The notes below the pieces were generated by a model. It was not told the DNA's origin. It searched no databases and worked only from the letters and a program-made list of their open reading frames with translations. Shown here in pieces: positions 4,827 through 18,319 of a stretch of 64,000 bases of DNA. Location of the stretch: positions 1 through 64,000 of the forward strand of contig WOUR01000027.1 in assembly GCA_009772935.1 (NCBI GenBank), read 5' to 3'. A program made the translations under genes and the position numbers. Every line of letters starts with the position of its first letter. Position 1 is the first letter of the stretch. This DNA is from Rhodospirillaceae bacterium (GTDB lineage: Bacteria > Pseudomonadota > Alphaproteobacteria > Reyranellales > Reyranellaceae).

Positions 4827-7800
4827 TCACCAGGTCATGCGCATGCCGGCCGTGAGGCCCTGGCTGCCGTCCGTTCCGGCCAGAGTGCCTTCGTAGCGCA
4901 GGTAGAGCGAGGTCGCCTCGGCGATGGCGGTGCTGGCGGAGAGGCCCAGAAGCACGCCGTCGCGAACCGGCGAGATACCGAAAGTCGTGAAGGGCGAAGC
5001 CGGCGCGCCGGCCAGCGCGGCGGTCACCGGCCGGGCGACATCGGCATACTCGTGGCTCCACCCCAGCCGGAACCGCATCGCCAGCCTGTCCCGCCAGCCC
5101 ATGTCCATCGACGCCCCCAACTGCGCGCCGATCACCGAGCGCAACGAGTTGGTCGTCTGCTGTGCGACCGAGAGGTTCAGCGACTGCGCCCCGGTCTCGC
5201 TGAAGCCGTTCTGGGTGCCGGTGTAGGCCTGCAGCCGCGCGAACGGCTTGATGAAGGCTTCGGCCTGGGCGGCGATGTCGAAGCTGTAGCCGGTCTCGAA
5301 CTGGCCGAACAGCTGGTTGGCGCCCGTCTGGCCGAAAGCGGTGCGCGCCGGCAAGCCTGGGATGAGGATCTGCCGCGTCATCCTGTTGTTGCTGTAGGCG
5401 TAGCCGATCAGGCCGTCGGCGTAGAACGGCCCGTTGGCATAGTTGCCGTAGAGCCCGGTCATCACGGTATCGCTGTTGCCCTGGCCGCTGAAACCCGAGA
5501 CCCATTGCGTACCGCCGCTGTAGCCCACGGTGATGCCGGCGCGGAAAGTCCCGGTGAAGGACCGGTCGAGGCCGGCGGCGAATCCGCCGGCATTGTAGGT
5601 GACGGCGCCCTGCGGGGTGCCGGCGCCGATCGTGCCGAGGCCGCCGATCGCGCCGCCCCAGGCGCCCCAGTGCGGCGGGTTCGACGCATCGCAGGCGACG
5701 TCGCAAGCCTCGGCAAGCGCCACGCGGGTGCTGCCCGACGGACCGCCGCCGCTGGCCTGGCTGGCAAAATTGTTCATGAAGAACTGCGCGCCCTGCACCA
5801 GTGCCGAAGAGAATCCCGCATAGTTGGTGCCCGAGAGCACTGTCAGGATCGGCTGGACCTGCGCTGCCGGCAGGGTGGCCAGTGTGCCCAGCACGGTGGC
5901 GTAGTCACCGGTCGCGGTGGCCGCCGTGCTGTCCAGCACGTTTGCAACGGCCTGCTGCTGCGGATTGAGCGCCGCGGTCGCGAAGCCCCCGATCTGCAGG
6001 GTGAGATAGACGTTGTTGGCGTCGTAGCTCAGACTCGGCAGCAGGAACGGCGAGCTGCTCGCGACGCCGGAGAAGCTGCCGCTCAGCCCGCCGGTGGCCT
6101 GCAGGATCGTATAGGTCGTACGCGGCGCATAGCCGCCGCCCGCCTGCACCTGCGCGAGGACCGCGCCGGCGAGCGAGGCGGTGCCCGTCGCACCGATGAC
6201 GTTCAGTCGGCTCGCCTGGCCGGAGGGAAACACGGCAACCTGGAACAGGCCTGCCGATGTCTGCGCGTACGAACCGTTTACCGTCATCGCGCCGTACGGC
6301 GTGCCCGGCGCCACGATGCCGGCATTGGCGAGCGAGCCCGTGAGTACGCCCGTGCCCGACAGAACGCCCAGGTTCGCGAACGTGCCGGCAAGGATTGCGT
6401 TGTTCAGGAACGAGCCGGTATTGAGCACGTCGCTGGCCAGGGTCCCCGTGTTGGTGGTGACTCCCTGGTTCCAGAAGCCTGGGCCGCCAGAGGACGAGAA
6501 GATGCCGGCATTGTTGAAGGTTGCGCCCTTCATCACCGTCATGCCACCGATGAGGGTGCCGGTGAGATTGAGCGTGCCGCCGCTCACCACCGTACCGCCG
6601 GTGTAAGCGTTCGTGCCGGCAAAGGTCTGCGTGCCGCCGGCAATGGTCACGCTGCCGCCGCCAATGTCGTATTCGCCGCCATCGGCGATGATGCCGGAGA
6701 ACGTACCGCGGCCGTCGGTGATCGTGAGATTCTGGCCGCCGAGGTTCACCTGGCCCGTGCCTCTCAGGGATTTGATGCTGACCGGAGCCCAGGCGCGCGA
6801 AATGTCGAACACGCCTTCGTTCACCACGCCGCTCGAGGTGGCGATGCTGCCCGGGCCGGAAATCAGCAGTGTTCCCGGAATGCCGCCGGCACTGTTGATC
6901 GTCGTCTCGCCGATATAGGTATTGGTGGCGCTGAGCTGTACGGCACCTCCGCTCCCGATGGTGAGGCCCCCCTGACCGGAAATGACGCCGGCCAGTCCCA
7001 AGGGGACGTTGCTGCTGTTGACGACGAGGGGGCCGTCGGCCGTCGTCTGGAGATTGGTGGCCGTGACGAAGAAGGGCGTGTAGCCGGTCGCTTGGTCGCT
7101 CAGGTCGAACATCACCGAGTTCTGCATGAAAAAGGGGATGCCCAGGGTGTTGGTCGACCCCTTTCCATCGACATAGTAGTTTGGCTTTCCGGTCAGGGTG
7201 GCCGTCGCCGTCGGCAGACCGAGGATTGGCTTTTCGTCCGGAGTGAGGCCGGTCATCGAGATCGTGCCGGTAAGCACTTCCGAATAGTCGCTGCTCAAGG
7301 AATAGTACTTCGTCCCGGTATCCAGCAGCGTGAATGCCTTTGCCGTCGTGGTCGAACTGCCCGACACGGTGACCTTGAAATACATGGCATCCGTTGGCGC
7401 CGAGTTGTTTGCGGTCGAACCGTTGCCGTACGGATTGGGGAAGGGAGGTGCCTGATCGGGTGACGCAGGAGCCACCCACTGGATCAAGCCGGGGGCCGAA
7501 GTCGGAGTCGGCATCGCTACCGGCGCAAACTGACCGATGATTTCCGGCGTGAGGCCCACCGTCACGCATGGATTGCACGTCGTCAGGCTCTGGGCACTGC
7601 CGCCGATCGACACCGTGGCGTTCGGGGTCGCAGACGGGCTTGCCGGATTGCCCTGGCCGTTGGCCGCCACGACGAAACCCTGGCGTGCCGCGCCTGGCAT
7701 GATCGCTTGCCCGAGCACGCCTCCGGCGATGTAGCAATCCGCTCCGCTGCACTCATGCTTGTTGAGCTTGTCGACGGAGATTCTGGAGCCGAACACGCCG

Positions 7801-8375
7801 TAGAACAGCCCTTCCTGTACAGGCAGGTCCTTCGTTGCGGGGTCAAGGAAGTACTGGGGAAAGAAGTCCAACGTCGGCGGGTCGGTCTTCGGATCCGAAT
7901 ATACGTAGGCGGCATTGACCTGAAATCCCAGCCCTGTCCCGCTGGGGGTGGTGAGCGTCGCTGCCGGTGCCGTTTCCGCCGTCGTCACCCCCGGCGCATA
8001 GAAGCTGAGCGACGGTATCAGCTGGATGTTGCCTATATAGCCACGGCAGTCGCTGCTGGTGCTTCCCGAGTAGCAGAGTTTGATGTTGTTGCCGTTGGCG
8101 AGGGGAGAAGCCGGGACATACGATGTATATTGGGAGAAGTTGCCCCACGTTTGCGGATCAAAAGCCGCATTGAACAGCGAGGACCCGGTATCGAACAGAT
8201 AAGGTCTCGGCGCGCCACCGTTGATGCCGATGTTGATCGAGAGACGCGCGGCGTTGGACTGGGCGTCGAAGACGTAGCTGAGGGGTATATTGGCGGAAGT
8301 CTGGCCGAGGGCCGAGGAGAATTCACAGCAGACCAGCATTGCCAGCCCACAGACCAACGCGATGTGCTTCCGCAT
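4827..8375 (-). CDS. autotransporter with pepsin-like aspartic-protease passenger, PATR-type repeats and C-terminal beta-barrel
   Basis: signal peptide; YLFDTGSSLF and FTLLDTGTKYYSL; GIPFFMQNSVMFDLSDQATGYTPFF; repeats GGLTIGSGGAVQLSATNTYIG / FAGTNAYTGGTVVSGGTLNLTG; C-terminal barrel ending GLTAGMRMTW. Confidence 0.85.
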   Translation of the reverse strand: MRKHIALVCGLAMLVCCEFSSALGQTSANIPLSYVFDAQSNAARLSINIGINGGAPRPYLFDTGSSLFNAAFDPQTWGNFSQYTSYVPASPLANGNNIKLCYSGSTSSDCRGYIGNIQLIPSLSFYAPGVTTAETAPAATLTTPSGTGLGFQVNAAYVYSDPKTDPPTLDFFPQYFLDPATKDLPVQEGLFYGVFGSRISVDKLNKHECSGADCYIAGGVLGQAIMPGAARQGFVVAANGQGNPASPSATPNATVSIGGSAQSLTTCNPCVTVGLTPEIIGQFAPVAMPTPTSAPGLIQWVAPASPDQAPPFPNPYGNGSTANNSAPTDAMYFKVTVSGSSTTTAKAFTLLDTGTKYYSLSSDYSEVLTGTISMTGLTPDEKPILGLPTATATLTGKPNYYVDGKGSTNTLGIPFFMQNSVMFDLSDQATGYTPFFVTATNLQTTADGPLVVNSSNVPLGLAGVISGQGGLTIGSGGAVQLSATNTYIGETTINSAGGIPGTLLISGPGSIATSSGVVNEGVFDISRAWAPVSIKSLRGTGQVNLGGQNLTITDGRGTFSGIIADGGEYDIGGGSVTIAGGTQTFAGTNAYTGGTVVSGGTLNLTGTLIGGMTVMKGATFNNAGIFSSSGGPGFWNQGVTTNTGTLASDVLNTGSFLNNAILAGTFANLGVLSGTGVLTGSLANAGIVAPGTPYGAMTVNGSYAQTSAGLFQVAVFPSGQASRLNVIGATGTASLAGAVLAQVQAGGGYAPRTTYTILQATGGLSGSFSGVASSSPFLLPSLSYDANNVYLTLQIGGFATAALNPQQQAVANVLDSTAATATGDYATVLGTLATLPAAQVQPILTVLSGTNYAGFSSALVQGAQFFMNNFASQASGGGPSGSTRVALAEACDVACDASNPPHWGAWGGAIGGLGTIGAGTPQGAVTYNAGGFAAGLDRSFTGTFRAGITVGYSGGTQWVSGFSGQGNSDTVMTGLYGNYANGPFYADGLIGYAYSNNRMTRQILIPGLPARTAFGQTGANQLFGQFETGYSFDIAAQAEAFIKPFARLQAYTGTQNGFSETGAQSLNLSVAQQTTNSLRSVIGAQLGASMDMGWRDRLAMRFRLGWSHEYADVARPVTAALAGAPASPFTTFGISPVRDGVLLGLSASTAIAEATSLYLRYEGTLAGTDGSQGLTAGMRMTW

Positions 8376-8440: not shown

Positions 8441-9157
8441 ATGAAAGTTTTTGTCAATGCGCGACCAGTTGGCCTGCGTGTCGCGCCGGGAACCAGGGTC
8501 TCGGCCCTCTACAAGGTGTCTCCCCATGCGATCACTCTGCTCGTGCTGGCGCATGGTGCAGGGGCTGGCATGAAACATCCGTTCATGGCCGCCGTGGCGG
8601 ACCGACTGGCGGAGGCCGGTGTGAGCACCCTCAGGTTTCAGTTTCCCTACATGGAGGCGGGCTCGAAGCGGCCCGACCGGCCGGCCATGGCCCATGCCAC
8701 GATCCGGGCGGCGGTCCGGAAAGCCGCGACGCTGGCGCCGGGGCTGCCGCTGTTCGCGGGCGGTAAGTCGTTCGGTGGCCGGATGACATCCCAGGCCCAG
8801 GCGCTCGAACCGCTGCCGAACGTCCGGGGCCTGGTGTTCCTGGGGTTCCCGCTGCACCCGCCGGAAAAGCCCTCAGTGGACCGCGCGGCGCATCTCTCGA
8901 ACACTCTTGTTCCCCTGCTGTTCATCCAGGGCACACGGGATCGGCTCGCCCGGCCTGCGCTCCTGCAAAAGGTCATGAAAAGCCTGGGGAAACGGGCCAC
9001 CTTCCGGCCGGTCAAACACGCCGACCATTCGTTCGGCGTCCTCGTTCGGTCGGGCCGAAGCCCTGAGGAGGTTCTCTGCGAGATTGCCGAGGTCGCGGGA
9101 GGCTGGATGAGGCTCGGGGAATCGGTGAAGCCGCCTGCTAGAGGAACTTCTCCTTGA
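8441..9157 (+). CDS. alpha/beta hydrolase, KANL3/Tex30 family
   Basis: AHGAGAGMKHPFM, GGKSFGGRMTSQ, GLVFLGFPLHPPEKP, FIQGTRDRLA. Confidence 0.88.
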   Translation: MKVFVNARPVGLRVAPGTRVSALYKVSPHAITLLVLAHGAGAGMKHPFMAAVADRLAEAGVSTLRFQFPYMEAGSKRPDRPAMAHATIRAAVRKAATLAPGLPLFAGGKSFGGRMTSQAQALEPLPNVRGLVFLGFPLHPPEKPSVDRAAHLSNTLVPLLFIQGTRDRLARPALLQKVMKSLGKRATFRPVKHADHSFGVLVRSGRSPEEVLCEIAEVAGGWMRLGESVKPPARGTSP

Positions 9158-10151
9158 TGTCGATCGTCGAGCGGTGGCCGATATGGTCGAAGTGCCCGGC
9201 GAGCCAATCGTCTGCCGCTTTCCGGCCGATTGCCTTGAGGTGCAGCAGGAAATCCATTCTCGCGTTGAGCTTGCTGGAGACCCCCAGGCCGCGCATCTGC
9301 TTCTCCGCCTCGATCCAGTGCACGTTGATGCGCTTGTAGCTGTTGGAGTCGAGTTTCTGCTCGTCGATCAGGTCGGTGACGAAGGAGATGGCGCGCATCT
9401 CGCGCATCAGCGACGAATTGAACGAGATCTCGTTGACGCGGTTCATGATCTCGGCCGCCGTCGTCGGGACGCGGTCGCAGCCCAGCGGATTGATCTGGAC
9501 GATCACCACGTCCTGGCTTTGCGTGCCGTAGATCAACGGGAAGATCGCCGGATTGCCCATGTAGCCGCCATCCCAGTAGGGATCGCCGTCGACCGTGACC
9601 GCCTGGAAGAGGAAGGGCAGGCAGGCCGATGCCAGCAGCGCCTCGGCCGTGATCTCGCCCGACTGGAAGACACGCACCTTGCCCGTCTTCACGTTGGTCG
9701 CGCTGATGAAGAGCTTCACCGCCCGGCAACCTTCGAGCCGCCGGAAGTCGATCGAACGTTCCAGCACGCCGCGCAACGGGTTCAGGTTCATGGGATTGAG
9801 CTGGTAGGGCGACAGCATGCGCGTCAGCATGTCGAATGCCACGAAGGCTGCCGAATGGTCGAGGTTCCATCCGCTGGAATATCGGTCGAACGGTGTGGGC
9901 TGCAGGGGGCCTGCCTGGGCGGCCCGGCTGATGTTGGTCCAGAAGTTGTCGAGGGCGCGGCGTGCCTCTTCGCGTCCGCCGCGGCCCATGCCGTCGGCGA
10001 ACACCGCGGCATTCATCGCGCCCGCCGAGGTGCCGGAGATTGCCTCCACCTCCAGGTGATCCTCGTCGAGCAGACGATCGAGCACCCCCCAGGTATAAGC
10101 GCCGTGGGCGCCGCCACCCTGAAGGGCGAGGTTGATGCGCTTGATCCCCAT
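9138..10151 (-). CDS. patatin-like phospholipase family protein
   Basis: NLALQGGGAHGAYTWGVLDRLL, GTSAGAMNA, DGGYMGN. Confidence 0.92.
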   Translation of the reverse strand: MGIKRINLALQGGGAHGAYTWGVLDRLLDEDHLEVEAISGTSAGAMNAAVFADGMGRGGREEARRALDNFWTNISRAAQAGPLQPTPFDRYSSGWNLDHSAAFVAFDMLTRMLSPYQLNPMNLNPLRGVLERSIDFRRLEGCRAVKLFISATNVKTGKVRVFQSGEITAEALLASACLPFLFQAVTVDGDPYWDGGYMGNPAIFPLIYGTQSQDVVIVQINPLGCDRVPTTAAEIMNRVNEISFNSSLMREMRAISFVTDLIDEQKLDSNSYKRINVHWIEAEKQMRGLGVSSKLNARMDFLLHLKAIGRKAADDWLAGHFDHIGHRSTIDIKEKFL

Positions 10152-10161
10152 CTCGGCCTCC

Positions 10162-10944
10162 TCAGTGCGCGGTCCAGCCGCCGTCCATGGGCAGGGCGGC
10201 GCCCGTCACCGACCCGCCACTGTCGCTGCACAGGAACGCGGCCAGGGCGGCGAGCTCCGCCACTTCGACGAAGCGCTTGTTCGGCTGGTTCTTCAGCAGC
10301 ACGTCGGAGATCACCTTCTCGCGGTCGATGCCGTGCGCCTTCGCCTGGTCGTCGATCTGCCGCTCGACGAGAGGCGTCCGCACGTAGCCTGGGCAGATGG
10401 CGTTGCAGGTGATGCCGTCCTCGGCGGTCTCGAGGGCCGTTACCTTGGTGAGGCCGAGCACGCCGTGTTTGGCGGCCACGTAGGCCGCCTTGTACGGTGA
10501 GGCGACCAGCGCGTGCGCCGAGGCCACGTTGATCACGCGGCCCCAGCCCTTGCGGCGCATCGCCGGCAGTACGAGCTTGGTGGTATGGAAGGCCGAGGAG
10601 AGGTTGATCGCCATGATGGCGTCCCACTTCTCTTCGGGAAACTCTTCGATCGGCGCGACGTGCTGGACACCGGCGTTGTTCACCAAGATGTCGACGGCGC
10701 CGAAGGTGTCGACCGTCTGCCGTACCATCTGCTCGATCGCCCTGGGCTTGCCCATGTCGGCCGGTGAATAGACGACCATCGCATTGGTGCGGTGGGCGAG
10801 ATCGGCGCGGGTGCGCTCGATCTCCATCGTGTCGCCGAAGCCGTTCAGCACCACATTCGCGCCGGCATGCGCGAACGCTTCGGCGATGCCGAGGCCGATG
10901 CCGCTGGTGGAGCCGGTGACGATGGCAGTCTTGCCCTTGAGCAT
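10162..10944 (-). CDS. 3-hydroxybutyrate dehydrogenase (SDR)
   Basis: GKTAIVTGSTSGIGLGIA, NNAGVQHVAPIEEFPEEKWDAI, YVAAKHGVLGLTKVTALE, ICPGYVRTPLVERQI. Confidence 0.92.
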   Translation of the reverse strand: MLKGKTAIVTGSTSGIGLGIAEAFAHAGANVVLNGFGDTMEIERTRADLAHRTNAMVVYSPADMGKPRAIEQMVRQTVDTFGAVDILVNNAGVQHVAPIEEFPEEKWDAIMAINLSSAFHTTKLVLPAMRRKGWGRVINVASAHALVASPYKAAYVAAKHGVLGLTKVTALETAEDGITCNAICPGYVRTPLVERQIDDQAKAHGIDREKVISDVLLKNQPNKRFVEVAELAALAAFLCSDSGGSVTGAALPMDGGWTAH

Positions 10945-10997
10945 GGATCGTTCCTCCTGATGGACGATCGCACTCTGCCCGCGGCGAGGATGGCGCT

Positions 10998-11026
10998 GAA
11001 ATGCCGTGTCCCTACCGATTCGATAG
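10998..11026 (-). promoter_or_regulatory. shared motif site A: (minus) CTATCGAAT-N12-GGCATTTC, upstream of 3-HB dehydrogenase
   Basis: fixed-spacing match to sites at 11719, 12699 and 16568; reads toward ATG at 10944. Confidence 0.6.
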
Positions 11027-11683
11027 GGCGTGGGTATGGCGCAACGCCTGCAGGGCCGTCAGCAGCTCCTCGGGATCGGGCCAGCACGCGGGATCGACGT
11101 CGGTGAAGGCAAACGCCAGGCGTGCATCGGGCGCCACGACGAAGACTGCGGGCACCGGCAGGCGCCAGTGCGTGTCGCCGTGCAGCGCCGGGAAGTCGCG
11201 GCCGCGGGTGCGGTGGATGCGGACATGCGCCGGCGACAGATCGTAGGCCAGTCCGCAGGTCCGCGCGAAGCCGTTGGCGGGATCGCTGAGCATGAGATAG
11301 CCGATGCCGCGTCTCTCGACGGTCCTGGCAATGTGCTCCACGCGCTCGGGCATGATGCCGACCGCCCGGGCGCCCAGCACCTCGATCGCCGGGCGGGCTT
11401 CCTCGAGCGCCGCCATGGTGAGGTCGCAGTAGGGGCACCAGCCCCCACGGAACAGCGCCAGCACGAGGGGGCCACGATCGAGCAGTTCCTGCGACGTCCA
11501 TAGGCGGCCGGCGCCATCGGACAAGGTGAAGTCGGGCAGGTAGTCGCCGAAGCCGAGCCCTTCCTCGACCAGCCGGACCATGCGCAGCCGGTCGAGCTCG
11601 TCCTGGAAATCCGCCCGGTCGCGAGCCGGAAGCGCCGCCCGGTGGCGGTCGTTCAGGTCGCGCAGAGTCTGGACGAGGTTCAT
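11012..11683 (-). CDS. peroxiredoxin-like protein (AhpC/TSA redoxin fold)
   Basis: FTLSDGAGRLWTSQELLDRGPLVLALFRGGWCPYCDLTMAALEE (CxxC). Confidence 0.88.
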   Translation of the reverse strand: MNLVQTLRDLNDRHRAALPARDRADFQDELDRLRMVRLVEEGLGFGDYLPDFTLSDGAGRLWTSQELLDRGPLVLALFRGGWCPYCDLTMAALEEARPAIEVLGARAVGIMPERVEHIARTVERRGIGYLMLSDPANGFARTCGLAYDLSPAHVRIHRTRGRDFPALHGDTHWRLPVPAVFVVAPDARLAFAFTDVDPACWPDPEELLTALQALRHTHALSNR

Positions 11684-11718
11684 GCCGGCTGCAGTGTGGC
11701 GGTCCTTTCCAGGCCCCG

Positions 11719-11747
11719 GAAATACCTTCCGGTTTTACATTCGATAG
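11719..11747 (-). promoter_or_regulatory. shared motif site B: (minus) CTATCGAAT-N12-GGTATTTC, upstream of peroxiredoxin-like gene
   Basis: same spacing as site A; in divergent peroxiredoxin/LysR intergenic region. Confidence 0.6.
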
Positions 11748-11758
11748 CCACAGGCTAT
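11744..11758. promoter_or_regulatory. LysR-type operator candidate ATAG-N7-CTAT
   Basis: perfect ATAGccacaggCTAT dyad directly upstream of the LysR gene. Confidence 0.6.
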
Positions 11759-11802
11759 GGTCATGCGAGGCATAATGGCTGCGAGCCCGGGGGACCGCTG
11801 CC

Positions 11803-12690
11803 GTGGAAATGCATCAGATCCGCTACTTCCTCGCGGTATGCGAGACGCTGAACTTCACGCGCGCCGCGGAGTCCTGCAACGTCTCGCAGCCATCGCTCAC
11901 GCGCGCAATCAAGGGCCTGGAAGACGAGTTGGGCGGCCCGTTGTTCCGGCGCGAGCGCAACAATACCCATCTGACCGGCCTCGGCGAGATGATGCGTCCT
12001 CATCTCACCCAGGTCCTGATCGAGACCGACGCCGCCAAGGAACGTGCCAAGAGCTTCGCAAGGCTCGACGATGTCGAGTTGAAGCTCGGCATGATGTGCA
12101 CCATCGGCCCGCGCCGCTTCGTGCCCTTCCTGCAGGCGTTTAGAGAGCGGCATCCCAAGGTGAAGCTGGTCGTGCAGGACGGCTCCAATACGATGCTGCA
12201 GGAGCGGTTGGTCCAGGGTGAGCTGGATGTCGCCGTCTATGGGCAGCCCGAGGAGATCGACGAGCGATTCCATGCGCGGCGGCTATACGACGAGAGGTTC
12301 GTGATCGGTGTCGGACCGGGACATTCCTTCGACAAGCTCAATGCCGTGAGGGTCCGGGACCTGCACGACCAGGCCTACGTCAATCGCCTGCAGTGCGAGT
12401 TCTTCGGACATGCGGGACGGATCTTCCGCGAGCATGGCGGCAAGCCGCGCATCGTCTTCCGCTCCGACCGCGATGATTGGGTGCAGAGCATGGCGATGGC
12501 GGGGCTGGGCTTCACCTTCATCCCGGAGTTCGCCGTCACCATGCCCGGCCTGCGCGTGCGACCGCTGATCGAGCCCGAGATCGTGCGCAGCATCCAGGTC
12601 GTCACCGTGCGCGGGCGGCCGCATGTGCCGGCGGTCGGCGCTTTCGTCCGTGAGATCCTCGCTTTTGCGTGGGTGAACGCCAGCGCCTGA
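11803..12690 (+). CDS. LysR family transcriptional regulator
   Basis: MEMHQIRYFLAVCETLNFTRAAESCNVSQPSLTRAIKGLEDELGGPLFRRER HTH plus substrate-binding domain. Confidence 0.95.
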   Translation: MEMHQIRYFLAVCETLNFTRAAESCNVSQPSLTRAIKGLEDELGGPLFRRERNNTHLTGLGEMMRPHLTQVLIETDAAKERAKSFARLDDVELKLGMMCTIGPRRFVPFLQAFRERHPKVKLVVQDGSNTMLQERLVQGELDVAVYGQPEEIDERFHARRLYDERFVIGVGPGHSFDKLNAVRVRDLHDQAYVNRLQCEFFGHAGRIFREHGGKPRIVFRSDRDDWVQSMAMAGLGFTFIPEFAVTMPGLRVRPLIEPEIVRSIQVVTVRGRPHVPAVGAFVREILAFAWVNASA

Positions 12691-12698
12691 CGGCGCGG

Positions 12699-12727
12699 CT
12701 ATCGAATCGATCCTCATTCGGCATTTC
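12699..12727 (+). promoter_or_regulatory. shared motif site C: CTATCGAAT-N12-GGCATTTC, upstream of secreted cupin gene
   Basis: same spacing as sites A and B, reading toward ATG at 12805. Confidence 0.6.
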
Positions 12728-12804
12728 AAGACGAAGCCCGCCGCTCCGATGCTGTCGACATCGCCGCGACATTTCCGTCGCGGCTCAACTGCACGGAGAT
12801 ACCG

Positions 12805-13263
12805 ATGTTCGCTCGAACCCTGATTGCTTCCACCCTGATCGTGGCCGGCCTCTCGGCCCCCGCTTTCGCCGGTGAGTGCCCAGCCGACAAGATGAAGACC
12901 GACGCCGTCAAGCCGGTGAGCCATGGCCCGAAGGGCGTGACCGACAAGGTGCTGGCGGCCATCGACCTCTCGAAGGAGAAGGTCTCCCTGAACGGCCACA
13001 TGATGCGCGTTCGCAAGCTCGAGATTCAGCCGGGCGGGATCGTGCCGTGGCACAGCCACGCCGAGCGTCCGGCGCTGATCTACGTCGTGACCGGCGAGAT
13101 CGTCGAGAATGCCAGCAACTGCGCCGTGCCGATCGTTCACAAGGCGGGCGAGGTTGCCCGCGAGACGCATGCCACGTCGCACTGGTGGCAGAACAACGGC
13201 AAGGCGACCGTCGTCCTGCTGTCATTCGATATCCAGAGCGACCCCAACGACAAGCACATGTGA
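12805..13263 (+). CDS. secreted cupin-domain protein
   Basis: signal peptide MFARTLIASTLIVAGLSAPAFA; PGGIVPWHSHAERPALIYVVTGEI cupin motif. Confidence 0.85.
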   Translation: MFARTLIASTLIVAGLSAPAFAGECPADKMKTDAVKPVSHGPKGVTDKVLAAIDLSKEKVSLNGHMMRVRKLEIQPGGIVPWHSHAERPALIYVVTGEIVENASNCAVPIVHKAGEVARETHATSHWWQNNGKATVVLLSFDIQSDPNDKHM

Positions 13264-13293
13264 CCGGATCGCATTGAATCGAAGGATCACATC

Positions 13294-14472
13294 ATGTCGG
13301 GTGTCCTGCGCGCGTTCACGATCGGCCTCACCGCCTTCCTGACCGTCGTCGACCTGTTCGCGACGCAGGCCATATTGCCGGCCCTGACCGCCGCCTATGG
13401 CGTCACGCCCGCCGCCATGGGACTGGCCGTCAACGCCAGTACCGTCGGCATGGCCGCCGGCGGGCTGGGTGTCGCCCTGCTGGGCAGGCGGCTCGACCGT
13501 CGGCGCGGAATCCTTCTCAGCCTCACCTTGCTCGCCGTGCCGACCGCGCTGCTGGCGACCATGCCGTCGCTGCCGGTGTTCACCGCCCTGCGCATCGTGC
13601 AGGGCCTCTTCATGTCGACGGCGTTCGGCCTCACGCTGGCATATCTCGGTGAACATGCGGGGCCCGCCGATATGGCGAACGCCTTCGCCGCCTACGTGAC
13701 AGGGAACGTCGCCTCCAACCTGTTCGGCCGCCTGCTGGCGGCGGGGGTGGTCGATCACCTGGGGCTCGCCGCGAACTTCCAGGTCTTCGCGGCCCTCAAT
13801 CTCGCCGGTGCCGTGCTGGTCTGGTTCACCGTCGAACGCACGCCGCCGATGAGGGCGGGGAACATGAGCCACGGCTCTCCGCTCTCGAGCTGGCGCCGTC
13901 ATCTCAGCGATCCTGGCCTGCGGGCCGCTTTCGCGACGGGCTTCGCGATCCTGTTCGCCTTCATCGGCACCTTCACCTACGTGAACTTCGTGCTGGTCGG
14001 CCCCCCCTTCGCCGTCGGCATGATGATGCTCGGGGTGATCTACTTCGTGTTCCTGCCGTCGGTGATCACCACGCCGCTGGCCGGTCTGGTCGTACGACGC
14101 CTGGGGACCCGGTCCACCCTCTGGCTGTCCTTTGCCGTGGCCGCGGTCGGGCTGCCGTTCCTGCTGGGCGTGGGCCTCTCTTCGATGCTGCTCGGTCTCG
14201 GCCTCATCTCGGTGGGCACGTTCTTCGCGCAGGCGACCGCCACCGGTTTCGTGGGGCGCGCCGCCACGATCGATCGCGGCGCGGCCAGCGGGCTTTATCT
14301 CGCGAGCTATTTCCTGGGCGGCCTCGCGGGCAGCGCCGTTCTGGGAGAGGTTTTCGATCGATGGGGTTGGACGGCCTGCGTGATCGGCATCGGCGCGTCG
14401 CTCGCCTTGGGTGCGGGACTCGCGGCCTGGCTGGTGGAGGATCGCGAGATCAGTCCGGCTCAGAGCCGGTGA
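13294..14472 (+). CDS. MFS transporter
   Basis: about 12 hydrophobic segments; LGVALLGRRLDRRRGILLSL, LRIVQGLFMSTAF. Confidence 0.9.
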   Translation: MSGVLRAFTIGLTAFLTVVDLFATQAILPALTAAYGVTPAAMGLAVNASTVGMAAGGLGVALLGRRLDRRRGILLSLTLLAVPTALLATMPSLPVFTALRIVQGLFMSTAFGLTLAYLGEHAGPADMANAFAAYVTGNVASNLFGRLLAAGVVDHLGLAANFQVFAALNLAGAVLVWFTVERTPPMRAGNMSHGSPLSSWRRHLSDPGLRAAFATGFAILFAFIGTFTYVNFVLVGPPFAVGMMMLGVIYFVFLPSVITTPLAGLVVRRLGTRSTLWLSFAVAAVGLPFLLGVGLSSMLLGLGLISVGTFFAQATATGFVGRAATIDRGAASGLYLASYFLGGLAGSAVLGEVFDRWGWTACVIGIGASLALGAGLAAWLVEDREISPAQSR

Positions 14473-15700
14473 TCAGCCGAGCGCCGGACTGGAAGGTCAC
14501 GTAGGACCAGATCCAGTCGAGCATCACGACGGCGCGGTTGCGAAAGCCGATCAGGAAGGAGACGTGGATCAGCCCCCACATCATCCAGGCGAGGGTCCCG
14601 TCGAGCCGCAGCCAGCCGAAATCCGCGACCGCGGAGCGCCGGCCGATGGTCGCCATGGTGCCGTAGTCACGATAGCGGAACGGCGGCGGCGATTGCCGGC
14701 CGGCGATGCGGGCGCGGAGGACGCGCGCGACATACGCGCCCTGCTGCTTGGCGACGGGCGCCAGCCCCGGCAGTTGCGTGCCGTCGCCGCGGGCGACGCT
14801 TGCCGTATCGCCGATGACGAAGATTTCCGGATGACCGGGCAGGGTGAGGTCCGGGCCGACGGGCACGCGGCCGACGCGGTCGCTCTCGATGCCCAGCCAT
14901 CGAGCGGCCGGCGATGCTGCCACGCCGGCGGCCCACACGATGGTGGCGGCGGGAATGTGATCCGCGCCGACCGTGACGCCGCTCTCGTCACAATTCGACA
15001 CGGGTGTGCCGAGCCGTACCTCGACCTTCAGCCGTTCGAGCGCCGCCCGGGCGGAGGCACTGAGCACAGGAGGAAACGCGGTCAGCACGCGGGAACCCGC
15101 TTCGACCAGGACGATACGGGCATCGCGCGGATCGATGGTGCGGAAATCGTGACGCAGCGCGACGTGGGCGAGCTCGGCGATGGCGCCCGCCATCTCGACG
15201 CCGGTCGGGCCGGCGCCGATCACCACGAAGGTCAGCAGGCGCCGGCGCGATTCCGCCACATCAGTTGCCTCGGCGTGCTCGAAGGCCGTCAGGATGCGGC
15301 GGCGGATGCGGGTGGCGTCGTCGATCTTCTTGAGGCCCGGCGCCGCCTTCTCCCACTCGTCGTGGCCGAAATAGGAATGGCGCGACCCGGTTGCCAGCAC
15401 GAGCTGGTCATAGGCGATCTCCCGGTCCTCGAGCCGCACGATCTGGCGCTGCCGGTCGACGCCGGTCACCTTGCCCAGGAAGACGCGCACGTTGGAGGCG
15501 CGGCGCAGGATTGCGCGAATGGGCGAGGCGATCTGGGCCGGCGACAGGCCGGCGGTCGCGACCTGGTAGAGCAGCGGCTGGAAGAGGTGGTAGTTGCGCC
15601 GGTCGATGACGGTGACGTCGGCGTCGGCGCCGGCGAGGTTGTGCGCGGCGCTGAGGCCGCCGAAGCCCGCGCCGACGATGACGATACGCGGACGGGCCAT
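14450..15700 (-). CDS. ndh: type II NADH dehydrogenase / NAD(P)/FAD-dependent oxidoreductase
   Basis: RIVIVGAGFGGLSAAHNLAGADADVTVIDRRNYHLFQPLLYQVATAGLSPAQIASPIR; start trimmed to MARPRIV at 15700. Confidence 0.92.
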   Translation of the reverse strand: MARPRIVIVGAGFGGLSAAHNLAGADADVTVIDRRNYHLFQPLLYQVATAGLSPAQIASPIRAILRRASNVRVFLGKVTGVDRQRQIVRLEDREIAYDQLVLATGSRHSYFGHDEWEKAAPGLKKIDDATRIRRRILTAFEHAEATDVAESRRRLLTFVVIGAGPTGVEMAGAIAELAHVALRHDFRTIDPRDARIVLVEAGSRVLTAFPPVLSASARAALERLKVEVRLGTPVSNCDESGVTVGADHIPAATIVWAAGVAASPAARWLGIESDRVGRVPVGPDLTLPGHPEIFVIGDTASVARGDGTQLPGLAPVAKQQGAYVARVLRARIAGRQSPPPFRYRDYGTMATIGRRSAVADFGWLRLDGTLAWMMWGLIHVSFLIGFRNRAVVMLDWIWSYVTFQSGARLITGSEPD

Positions 15701-15717
15701 GGCGAGCCTCCCTGGAG

Positions 15718-16194
15718 TTAAGCGCGTCCGAACAGGTTGAACGCGATGATGCGGTCGATCGACAGGGCGCCCGGCCCGCGTGTCAGAACATAGGCCAGAA
15801 TGGAGGCCCACATCAGATGCTCGGGCCAGTTGCCGGGATAGACCAGGAACTGGATGACCAGGGTCATCGTCAGCAGGGCCGCGGCGCCGAGCCGGGCGAA
15901 GAGGCCGAGGACCAGCAGAACCGGCGCGCCCAGCTCGACGGCGGTTCCCATCGTGGCGGCGATCTCCGGCGGCAGAAGAGGCAGGCGATACTCTTCGCGG
16001 AACAGCTCGACCGCGGTGTCGAAGCTTTCGAACTTGTTCATGCCCGAGCGGAAGAACGTGGCGCCGACGGCCGTGCGCATGCCGAATTCCAGCAGCGACA
16101 GCGGAACGCGATTGCCGGCGGCGCGCAGCGCGGCAAGACGCGAAGAGATGCGGCGAAACCCGTCGGTATCACGAGTGAAGGTGTCCGTCGTCAT
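15718..16194 (-). CDS. DoxX family membrane protein (bufferin-locus partner candidate)
   Basis: LLEFGMRTAVGATFFRSGMNKFESFDTAVELFREEYRLPLLPPEIAATMGTAVELGAPVLLVLGLFARLGA. Confidence 0.88.
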   Translation of the reverse strand: MTTDTFTRDTDGFRRISSRLAALRAAGNRVPLSLLEFGMRTAVGATFFRSGMNKFESFDTAVELFREEYRLPLLPPEIAATMGTAVELGAPVLLVLGLFARLGAAALLTMTLVIQFLVYPGNWPEHLMWASILAYVLTRGPGALSIDRIIAFNLFGRA

Positions 16195-16218
16195 GGTTGC
16201 TCTCTCCTCTGAAAGGGT

Positions 16219-16247
16219 CCGGCCGCCGCTTCTTGGGCGGCGGCCGG
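16219..16247 (-). repeat. perfect 11-bp inverted repeat / hairpin between bufferin precursor and DoxX gene
   Basis: CCGGCCGCCGC-N7-GCGGCGGCCGG. Confidence 0.75.
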
Positions 16248-16253
16248 CGGGGA

Positions 16254-16502
16254 TCAGCCCCTTGCGGCCGTCAGCTTGCCGCCGACGATCTTCTCGCAGG
16301 TACCCTTCGGCACGCCGACCCAGGCACTGGCCTCGGCATCCTTCTTGGAGGTGCCGGCGCACGACGACGTGGCGGTCTGGCAGTCGTTCTTGCCGGCCTT
16401 GGCGACGCCGTAGCATTTCTCGACGTTGCCCTGGGCCTGCGCCGCCGCGCCGAGCAGCAGGGCAGTGCTGAGGGCGGCCGCGATGGTGAGTGTGGACTTC
16501 AT
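16254..16502 (-). CDS. DUF2282 / BufA1-type bufferin precursor peptide (metal-binding RiPP)
   Basis: signal peptide then [48 protein letters not shown]; four Cys in DUF2282 pattern. Confidence 0.88.
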
Positions 16503-16567
16503 GATCATCTCCTTGGGTTGGTCTCCCTCTCGGGATGGCCAACGATGCCGTCCGCCCGCTCCAGCCT

Positions 16568-16596
16568 GAAATATCGAGTCGACATCGGAACGATAG
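16568..16596 (-). promoter_or_regulatory. shared motif site D: (minus) CTATCGTTC-N12-GATATTTC, upstream of bufferin precursor
   Basis: GAAATATC...CGATAG aligned at the same spacing as sites A-C; reads toward ATG at 16502. Confidence 0.5.
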
Positions 16597-16662
16597 CCGG
16601 CGTGTGAGGGCGGAAGGGAAGGACTTCGGAGTAGGCTCCTCCTGCCTCGCAAGGGAGAACCC

Positions 16663-17508
16663 ATGAACGGCAATCTAGCCATGACCGGCATCGGGCTGCG
16701 CGCGCCGCACCTTGCCGCGATTTCGAACGACAGGCCTTCGATCGGCTTCCTCGAGATCCATGCCGAGAACTATCTCGCGCCGACGGCCGCGCTCCGCACG
16801 GTGGAGCGCTTGCGCTGCGACTATCCGCTCTCCATCCATGCGGTGGGTCTGTCGCTCGGCTCCGTCGACGGTCTCGACGAAGCCCATCTGGATCGCGTGG
16901 TGGCGCTGGTGGAGCGGGTCGAACCGATGCTCGTGTCCGATCACCTGTCGTGGAGCAGCCTGGGGGGCCGCTGCTACAATGATCTGCTGCCCTTGCCGTA
17001 CACCGAGGAGGCGCTGGCGGTTGTGGTGCGTAACGTCCAGCGGCTGCAGGAGCGGTTGGGCCGCCGGGTCTCGATCGAGAATCCGTCCTGCTATCTCGGC
17101 TTCCGGCATTCGACCCTGTCGGAGCCGGAGTTCCTCGCGGAAGTGGTGCGGCGCAGCGGTTGCGGCCTCCTGCTCGATGCCAACAACGTCGTCGTGACGG
17201 CACACAATCTGCGGCTCGATCCGGCGGGCTGGCTCGAGGACCTGCCGGTCCATGCGGTGACCGAGTATCACCTGGCCGGCCACGCCGTGAACGACGCCGA
17301 CGGTGAGCCGGTCCTGATCGACGACCATGGCAGCCGCATCGGCGATCGTGTTTTCGAGCTTTTCGGGGAGATGGTGCATCGATATGGGCGCCGGCCGACG
17401 CTCGTCGAATGGGACACCGACATTCCGGCGCTCGACGTCCTTCTGGGCGAGGCGCGTCGAGCTGCGCGCGTGCTGGAGGCGGAGCGGGCCCATGCTCACG
17501 CTGCCTGA
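16663..17508 (+). CDS. DUF692 family multinuclear non-heme iron oxidase (MNIO, BufB-like)
   Basis: [79 protein letters not shown]. Confidence 0.93.
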
Positions 17509-18319
17509 ACTGCAGGCGGCCTTTGCCGATGGTCTCGGCGGCAGGGGCTGCGACCGCCTGCTCGACCTGATCGTCGGCGATTCGATCTCCGCCGCCGCGC
17601 GGCTTCGCATACATCGCAATCACGTCCGGCAAAGCCTCGCCGCGGCACTCGCGGCGACTTTCCCGACGGTGGCCAGTCTGGTCGGCGGCGCGTTCTTCGA
17701 CGCCATGGCGAGGGCGTTCGTCGCGGACAGCCCGCCGGAAGGCCCTGTGCTCGCCGAGTATGGCGAGGGCTTTGCGGTCTTCATCGAAAACTTCGCGCCA
17801 GTGCGCGCGCTACCCTATCTCTCCGACGTGGCGCGCCTCGACTGGGCGCTCAACCATGCTTTCCATGCCGCGCGCGGCACGCGCTTGGAAGCGGCCGATC
17901 TCGGGAGCGTGACGCCCGAACAGCTGGTCGCCTTGTCCCTGGACCTTGCGCCCGACGTCACACTGCTGACGTCGGCATATCCGCTCGGGCGCATCTGGCA
18001 GGCATGCCAACCGGGCGCACCCGACGCCGAGGTCGATCTCGCGTCGGGAGGCGCTTCGCTGCTGGTGATGCGTCAGGAGGACGACGCCGTGTTTGCATAT
18101 CTCGATCCGGGGGACGCGGCATTCGTCGGTGCGATCAGTCGCGGCGTGCCGGTCGGGGAGGCCGCGCAGCTGGCGCAGGCCAACTGGTCGGCCTTCGATC
18201 CGGCGCAGTCATTTCGGCGCCTGCTCGAGTGGCAGATCTTCGCTGCCGGGGCGGTGGTAGTGGGACCAGTCGGATACGAACCAATCTCCGGGCGAATTCC
18301 CTGCCAGGAGGGGAAGTAG
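17495..18319 (+). CDS. DUF2063 family putative DNA-binding/partner protein (BufC-like)
   Basis: [12 protein letters not shown]...RLRIHRNHVRQSLAAALAATFPTVASLVGGAFFDAMARAFVADSPPEGPVLAEYGEGFAVFIENF. Confidence 0.92.
   Translation, partial: LTLPELQAAFADGLGGRGCDRLLDLIVGDSISAAARLRIHRNHVRQSLAAALAATFPTVASLVGGAFFDAMARAFVADSPPEGPVLAEYGEGFAVFIENFAPVRALPYLSDVARLDWALNHAFHAARGTRLEAADLGSVTPEQLVALSLDLAPDVTLLTSAYPLGRIWQACQPGAPDAEVDLASGGASLLVMRQEDDAVFAYLDPGDAAFVGAISRGVPVGEAAQLAQANWSAFDPAQSFRRLLEWQIFAAGAVVVGPVGYEPISGRIPCQEGK

Follow-up and report, generated by a model that had tools for sequence, protein, structure and literature searches.

The window, that is, the whole 64,000-nt stretch of DNA analysed here, contains a contiguous block of genes at 9138–18319 that is served, as judged from the sequence, by four predicted promoters. 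The left part of the block is encoded on the minus strand and comprises a gene for a patatin-like phospholipase (9138–10151; PF01734), which is the second gene after bdh and stays beside it in relatives, the 3-hydroxybutyrate dehydrogenase gene bdh (10162–10944; TIGR01963, 384 bits, above the cut-off) and the AhpC/TSA-family peroxiredoxin gene prx (11012–11683; PF00578). Divergent from prx lies a plus-strand gene with a GTG start for a LysR-type transcriptional regulator (LTTR) of 295 aa (11803–12690; Pfam HTH_1 and LysR_substrate), the proposed binder of the four operators described below. It is followed on the same strand by the gene of an exported cupin protein (12805–13263; PF07883), whose orthologs occurred only in LysR-bearing genomes (10/10), and, second after the cupin gene here and after it in most relatives, by an MFS transporter gene (13294–14472; PF07690). 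The minus strand then carries genes for an NDH-2-like pyridine nucleotide-disulphide oxidoreductase (14450–15703; PF07992 and PF22366), a DoxX-family membrane protein (15718–16194; PF07681) and the bufferin precursor BufA (16254–16502; DUF2282, PF10048). Divergent from bufA and having no site of its own is the plus-strand gene of the MNIO-family bufferin maturase BufB (16663–17508; NF050167, 342.8 bits, above the cut-off), followed by that of the DUF2063 partner protein BufC (17492–18319, plus strand; PF09836). The DUF2282 precursor, the MNIO, DUF2063 and DoxX proteins together constitute a bufferin gene cluster. Upstream of the cluster, an exported protein of 1182 aa is encoded at 4827–8375, whose C-terminal part resembles, on inspection by eye, an autotransporter-type beta domain.

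The original prediction placed four copies of a fixed-spacing promoter motif at 10998–11026 (−; site A), 11719–11747 (−; site B), 12699–12727 (+; site C) and 16568–16596 (−; site D), and all four were found at these positions and strands. The promoter-sense string given with them lacks one invariant G and finds no match in its literal form; the corrected consensus is CTATCG-N15-G[GA][CT]ATTTC (CTATCG-N15-GRYATTTC). The distances to the start codons, 35–77 nt, were as predicted. As to their location, described as non-coding or at gene ends for three of the sites, B, C and D are intergenic and A is superimposed on the end of prx, where CTA TCG AAT CGG TAG reads L S N R stop (11012–11026); thus, part of the conservation of site A is coding. 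The genome-wide scan proposed with the original prediction covered 6.01 Mb in 124 contigs and returned exact matches at the four sites only, against 0.04 expected per genome by base composition, and the reversed pattern gave 0 matches. Since the pattern was derived from these four sites, the independent evidence comes from relatives. Applied unchanged to same-genus genomes, it occurred in 18 of the 19 that carry a LysR ortholog (79% identity or more) and in 4/42 of those without one (Fisher p ~1e−10), mostly as 2–4 copies adjoining lysR, and in the 20-odd annotated relatives the orthologous sites precede prx, bdh, cupin and bufA. Many relatives have, in addition, a fifth site located behind the MFS gene and before a DUF302 gene (L087 6823–6851, L093 7740–7768, L163 4329–4396); this copy is absent from the window's genome. 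The sites are genuine and highly significant, well beyond what chance would produce.

Conservation was examined in an alignment of 70 Reyranella-type sites, numbered from the C of CTATCG as 1. The conserved positions were ATA at −11 to −9, [CG][TC]AT at 1–4, AT at 12–13, GYATTTCA at 23–30 and, after 20 nt of variable DNA, [CG]ANNNT at 50–55, in which A51 and T55 were invariant (70/70) although they lie outside the selecting pattern. Among 132 operator-only matches from distant genomes, 103 carried the A…T pair exactly at +51/+55, with no other offset above 9. The original prediction had missed both the upstream ATAG half-site, which lies 11 bp ahead of CTATCG, and this hexamer, which follows ATTTC at a constant distance of 20 nt. 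Consequently, the reading of the motif as an operator plus −10 box held for the operator but not for the −10: GRYATTTC was rejected in that role because a separate invariant A…T hexamer lies 20 nt further on. With the putative transcription start set 7 nt after the hexamer, the full site A, the predicted operator-promoter of bdh-patatin, extends over 10972–11037 (−), with the operator at 11037–10997, the −35 region at 11002–10997, the −10 CAGAGT at 10977–10972 and a start at ~10965. Site B (11693–11758, −), in the lysR/prx divergent gap, would serve prx from a −35 region at 11723–11718, a −10 CACACT at 11698–11693 and a start at ~11686. For the cupin-MFS pair, site C (12688–12753, +) offers a −35 region at 12723–12728, a −10 GATGCT at 12748–12753 and a start at ~12760, and for bufA-doxX-NDH the corresponding elements of site D (16542–16607, −) lie at 16572–16567, 16547–16542 (CATCGT) and ~16535. 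The prx hexamer ends 9 nt before the ATG (11683–11698) and relatives keep 8–9 nt, hence the prx mRNA is predicted to be almost leaderless and is probably leaderless.

The averaged dyad symmetry of 123 independent distant sites peaked at −4, 8 and 19 (0.66, 0.49 and 0.42, against a background near 0.25), that is, at three centres 11 bp apart and about −65, −54 and −43 from the putative start. The first corresponds to a 15-bp T-N11-A box, ATAG-N7-CTAT (motif positions −11 to 4), and the last to a second one, ATNN-N7-GYAT (12 to 26), the box centres being 22 bp apart with the third dyad midway; at site B the first box is seen as ATAGCC-N3-GGCTAT (11758–11744). On the promoter side, the second box extends into a weak −35 (ATTTCA/TTTCAG). 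Measured from the putative start, this is the layout of an LTTR promoter, with T-N11-A dyad boxes placed distally near −65 and proximally near −40, the latter touching the −35. The same layout is known from oxyR-oxyS, where 15-bp ATAG-N7-CTAT repeats, IR1 and IR2, are centred at −66/−44, the proximal dimer sits next to the −35 and the distal dimer overlaps the regulator's own divergent promoter (PMC5002191). As the dyads are arranged as in an OxyR-type LTTR promoter, GRYATTTC represents the proximal half-site together with the −35 region. The resemblance includes the boxes 22 bp apart at about −65/−43, the proximal one at the −35, and a regulator divergent from its target; in contrast, the CGA..C and CGGYATTTC core of the window sites falls outside the OxyR consensus. 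IR1 was poorly matched at window sites C and D.

A sequence-only model of the site, R1, was built from 67 Reyranella sites including those of the window. On the window's genome it scored the four sites at E=7e−13 (A), 6e−12 (B), 7e−11 (C) and 1.6e−8 (D) and the next best place at 0.19; since the window sites belong to the training set, only this gap is informative. The distant test set consisted of 63 named loci that belong to further families and orders, none used in training, including Microvirga, Methylobacterium, Azospirillum, Dongia, Rhodoblastus and Sphingomonas, with LysR proteins of 45–71% identity. Here R1 detected about 98 sites at E<=0.01, and a matrix scan of 62 of the loci gave 120–145 matches versus 0 in the same sequences reversed. 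Matches of 12–13 bits at the LysR start codon were discarded as coding look-alikes (IRYF, ending in TATTTC). The genes downstream of the distant sites were of the cupin, bdh, bufA, NDH, doxX, prx and DUF302 types, and further members encode DM13, a DUF417 (RclC-family) protein and a flavoprotein disulphide oxidoreductase. In 36/61 distant loci a site lay directly upstream of lysR, and the gene opposite varied (prx, cupin, bdh, bufA and others). One record named Mycobacterium sp. KBS0706 (L205, NZ_VCCH02000120.1) contained the alphaproteobacterial LysR, at 50% identity, together with an operator ahead of bufA, which suggests a misnamed or contaminated assembly.

Co-occurrence was also followed in a class sample of 385 alphaproteobacterial genomes, 38 of which contained the LysR clade (E<=1e−60). 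An R1 match at E<=1e−4 was found in 13/385 genomes, and all 13 were LysR-bearing (Fisher 1e−14); at E<=1e−3, 24 of the 38 LysR-bearing genomes had no R1 match under stricter filters and with diverged LysRs. In several genomes (e.g., G217, G351, G147 and G223) the site and lysR were on different contigs, so mere linkage does not explain their co-occurrence. The target genes themselves travel together with lysR, therefore the co-occurrence of genes alone is weak evidence. Across relatives, an R1 match at E<1e−3 was present at 10 of the 11 LysR-type bufA copies versus 0/19 others; the apparent exceptions G018 and G053 were incomplete assemblies with contigs ending near the cluster. Two further bufferin operons are found in the window's own genome (L268, G000:C104, 3864–5304; L269, G000:C117, 5154–7433), one of them beside an NrsF gene, and neither the paralogous bufABC on C104 nor the NrsF-linked buf operon on C117 has a site. 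Thus, three bufferin operons seem to be differently controlled within a single genome.

The regulator has the LTTR fold, with PF00126 and PF03466 both above cut-off. A LysR of 98% identity occurs in Reyranella MAGs, which assigns the window to a species of this soil genus, while its closest LTTR paralog in the same genome shares only 29% identity with it. The AlphaFold model (pLDDT 89.8) matched best, among solved structures, OxyR C199D (4x6g, TM 0.83). OxyR identity was nevertheless rejected by the NF008361 score of 102.4 bits against a cut-off of 329. Like OxyR, the protein has a Cys in the C199 loop, namely C198 near the C199 position, but it has no Cys at 208 and thus no C208-type resolving Cys or C199/C208-type redox pair. 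In 79 relatives C198 and E199 were conserved in all 79, C25 in 78, T100 in 76 and C99 in 73, and the Cys99/Cys198 pair occurred in none of the 25 other LTTRs of the genome. One of these, on contig C78, carries the OxyR signature HCLRDQ..C. The regulator is therefore an LTTR that resembles OxyR in fold and operator but is not itself an OxyR. Frames of the clade with a single in-frame stop were seen in G086:C29 (TGA), G184:C232 (TGA), G284:C5 (TAA) and G359:C1 (TAG), for which decay or assembly error is possible.

Read from the DNA itself, the sites, their spacing, the dyads, the −10, the conservation and the co-occurrence with lysR make it very probable that each of the four sites joins an operator to a core promoter at a constant distance, and that through these operators the LysR at 11803–12690 would activate the adjacent operons. 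The original prediction left open a local regulon of this LysR or of an alternative sigma factor. The former is strongly supported by the inverted repeats, the cross-genus co-occurrence, the sites in trans and the site-less paralogous operons, and the latter found no support. An ECF sigma factor would account for the fixed two-block spacing, and it has a precedent: bufferins protect against excess copper, and in Caulobacter their operons are under the ECF factor SigF (PMC3511200, PMC8224329), controlled with NrsF via GTAACC-N16-CGAA (PMC3511200); moreover, the window's genome has two NrsF genes. The Caulobacter regulon, like the one predicted here, joins bufA/bufB/doxX-type genes to oxidant-repair genes (PMC3511200, PMC8224329), but an ECF sigma stands there and an LTTR with a dyad operator here. 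The sites are unlike the Caulobacter sequence, which has no match with <=2 mismatches at the target promoters; the conserved block of ~66 bp includes dyads that reach about −72, upstream of the sigma contacts; a separate [CG]ANNNT −10 is invariant; NrsF is encoded only on contigs C109 and C117, away from the window, and its linked buf operon is site-less; and the sites track LysR. Sigma promoters are thus a very improbable explanation. Coincidence, by chance or by coding constraint, might be argued from the choice of the pattern after the fact and from the overlap of site A with coding sequence, but the uniqueness of the pattern in the genome, its conservation in relatives and its lack of matches in reversed sequence leave it a negligible probability.

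It would also be conceivable that an unlinked transcription factor binds the sites and LysR is a bystander, as binding by LysR is itself inferred, half-sites are alike among LTTRs and the genuine OxyR-like paralog on C78 offers a candidate. An example of such likeness is OxyR-Like of Magnetospirillum gryphiswaldense, whose GATA-N9-TATC box resembles box 1 of the window sites (PMC5308003). OxyR-Like and LsrB of Rhizobiales (PMC11975290) are alphaproteobacterial redox-type LTTRs as well, but they regulate pdh/magnetosome genes and the peroxide response, and the 80 loci retained after the LysR scan included none from Magnetospirillum or Rhizobium/Agrobacterium. However, the co-occurrence with LysR is exclusive class-wide and holds in trans, a site adjoins lysR while the partners change, and genus relatives lacking LysR rarely have sites, which makes a bystander role for LysR quite improbable. 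If LysR does bind these operators, it could act mainly as a repressor: such a mode might be exerted through the central dyad (+8) and through the box that overlaps the −35, and for group-two LTTRs repression from a third repeat is known (PMC5002191). The box centres at about −65/−43, on the other hand, are placed as in activating LTTR promoters, and so weak a −35 would seem to require an activator, so that repression appears unlikely, if less so than a foreign regulator. Activation is thus preferred on geometry alone.

We infer that LysR binds, activates, regulates its own gene and senses redox state as follows. An LTTR tetramer seated on the two boxes would cover about −72 to −35, and by analogy with OxyR-type promoters the activated regulator would recruit RNA polymerase to prx, bdh-patatin, cupin-MFS and bufA-doxX-NDH. 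From the divergent site B it would probably repress lysR, which is thus probably a target in addition to the four predicted operons. As to the signal, the E. coli RclR/rclABC system (PMC7527725, PMC12096828) shares with the distant regulon members DUF417 (RclC-family) and flavoprotein disulphide oxidoreductase genes and copper handling, but it has another regulator and overlaps little with the window (NDH-2-like and DoxX only). RclC is required for hypothiocyanite resistance in E. coli (PMC12096828), and RclA links HOCl and copper (PMC7527725). Together with this literature, the distant DUF302, DM13, DUF417 and flavoprotein members point weakly to an oxidant and/or copper signal. Tentatively, the signal might be a thiol-reactive oxidant, such as a peroxide or a reactive chlorine species, and/or copper stress, possibly read by Cys198/Cys99. 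Somewhat more speculative is the proposal of a distinct class-wide LTTR clade that lacks the OxyR-type C199/C208 pair and senses oxidants (and/or copper) via Cys198 and Cys99. Such a clade would drive a regulon for the defence of the envelope against oxidants and copper, bufferins included, and would offer another route of control besides SigF/NrsF.

The promoter arrangement is of the textbook LTTR activation type, a kind already known. A literature search on LysR with bufferins, with DUF302/cupin or with Reyranella found nothing relevant, and a survey of MNIO gene clusters mentions sigma/anti-sigma genes but not LysR (PMC12452194). Compared with the literature searched, the regulator clade, its regulon and its predicted control of bufferins appear to be new. 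The LysR regulator and its predicted DNA signal recur across Alphaproteobacteria before oxidant-defence and copper-binding bufferin genes, and the four promoters are almost certainly switches of the LysR encoded among them. They give an uncharacterised LTTR family, present in about a tenth of the sampled alphaproteobacterial genomes (38/385), an unusually well-defined regulon that can be put to the test, and they could be used as reporters for finding the inducing signal. The regulator is a candidate for the control of bufferin operons outside SigF/NrsF, and its predicted regulon brings genes for peroxiredoxin, cupin, DUF302 and 3-hydroxybutyrate metabolism together with that of a copper-binding RiPP.
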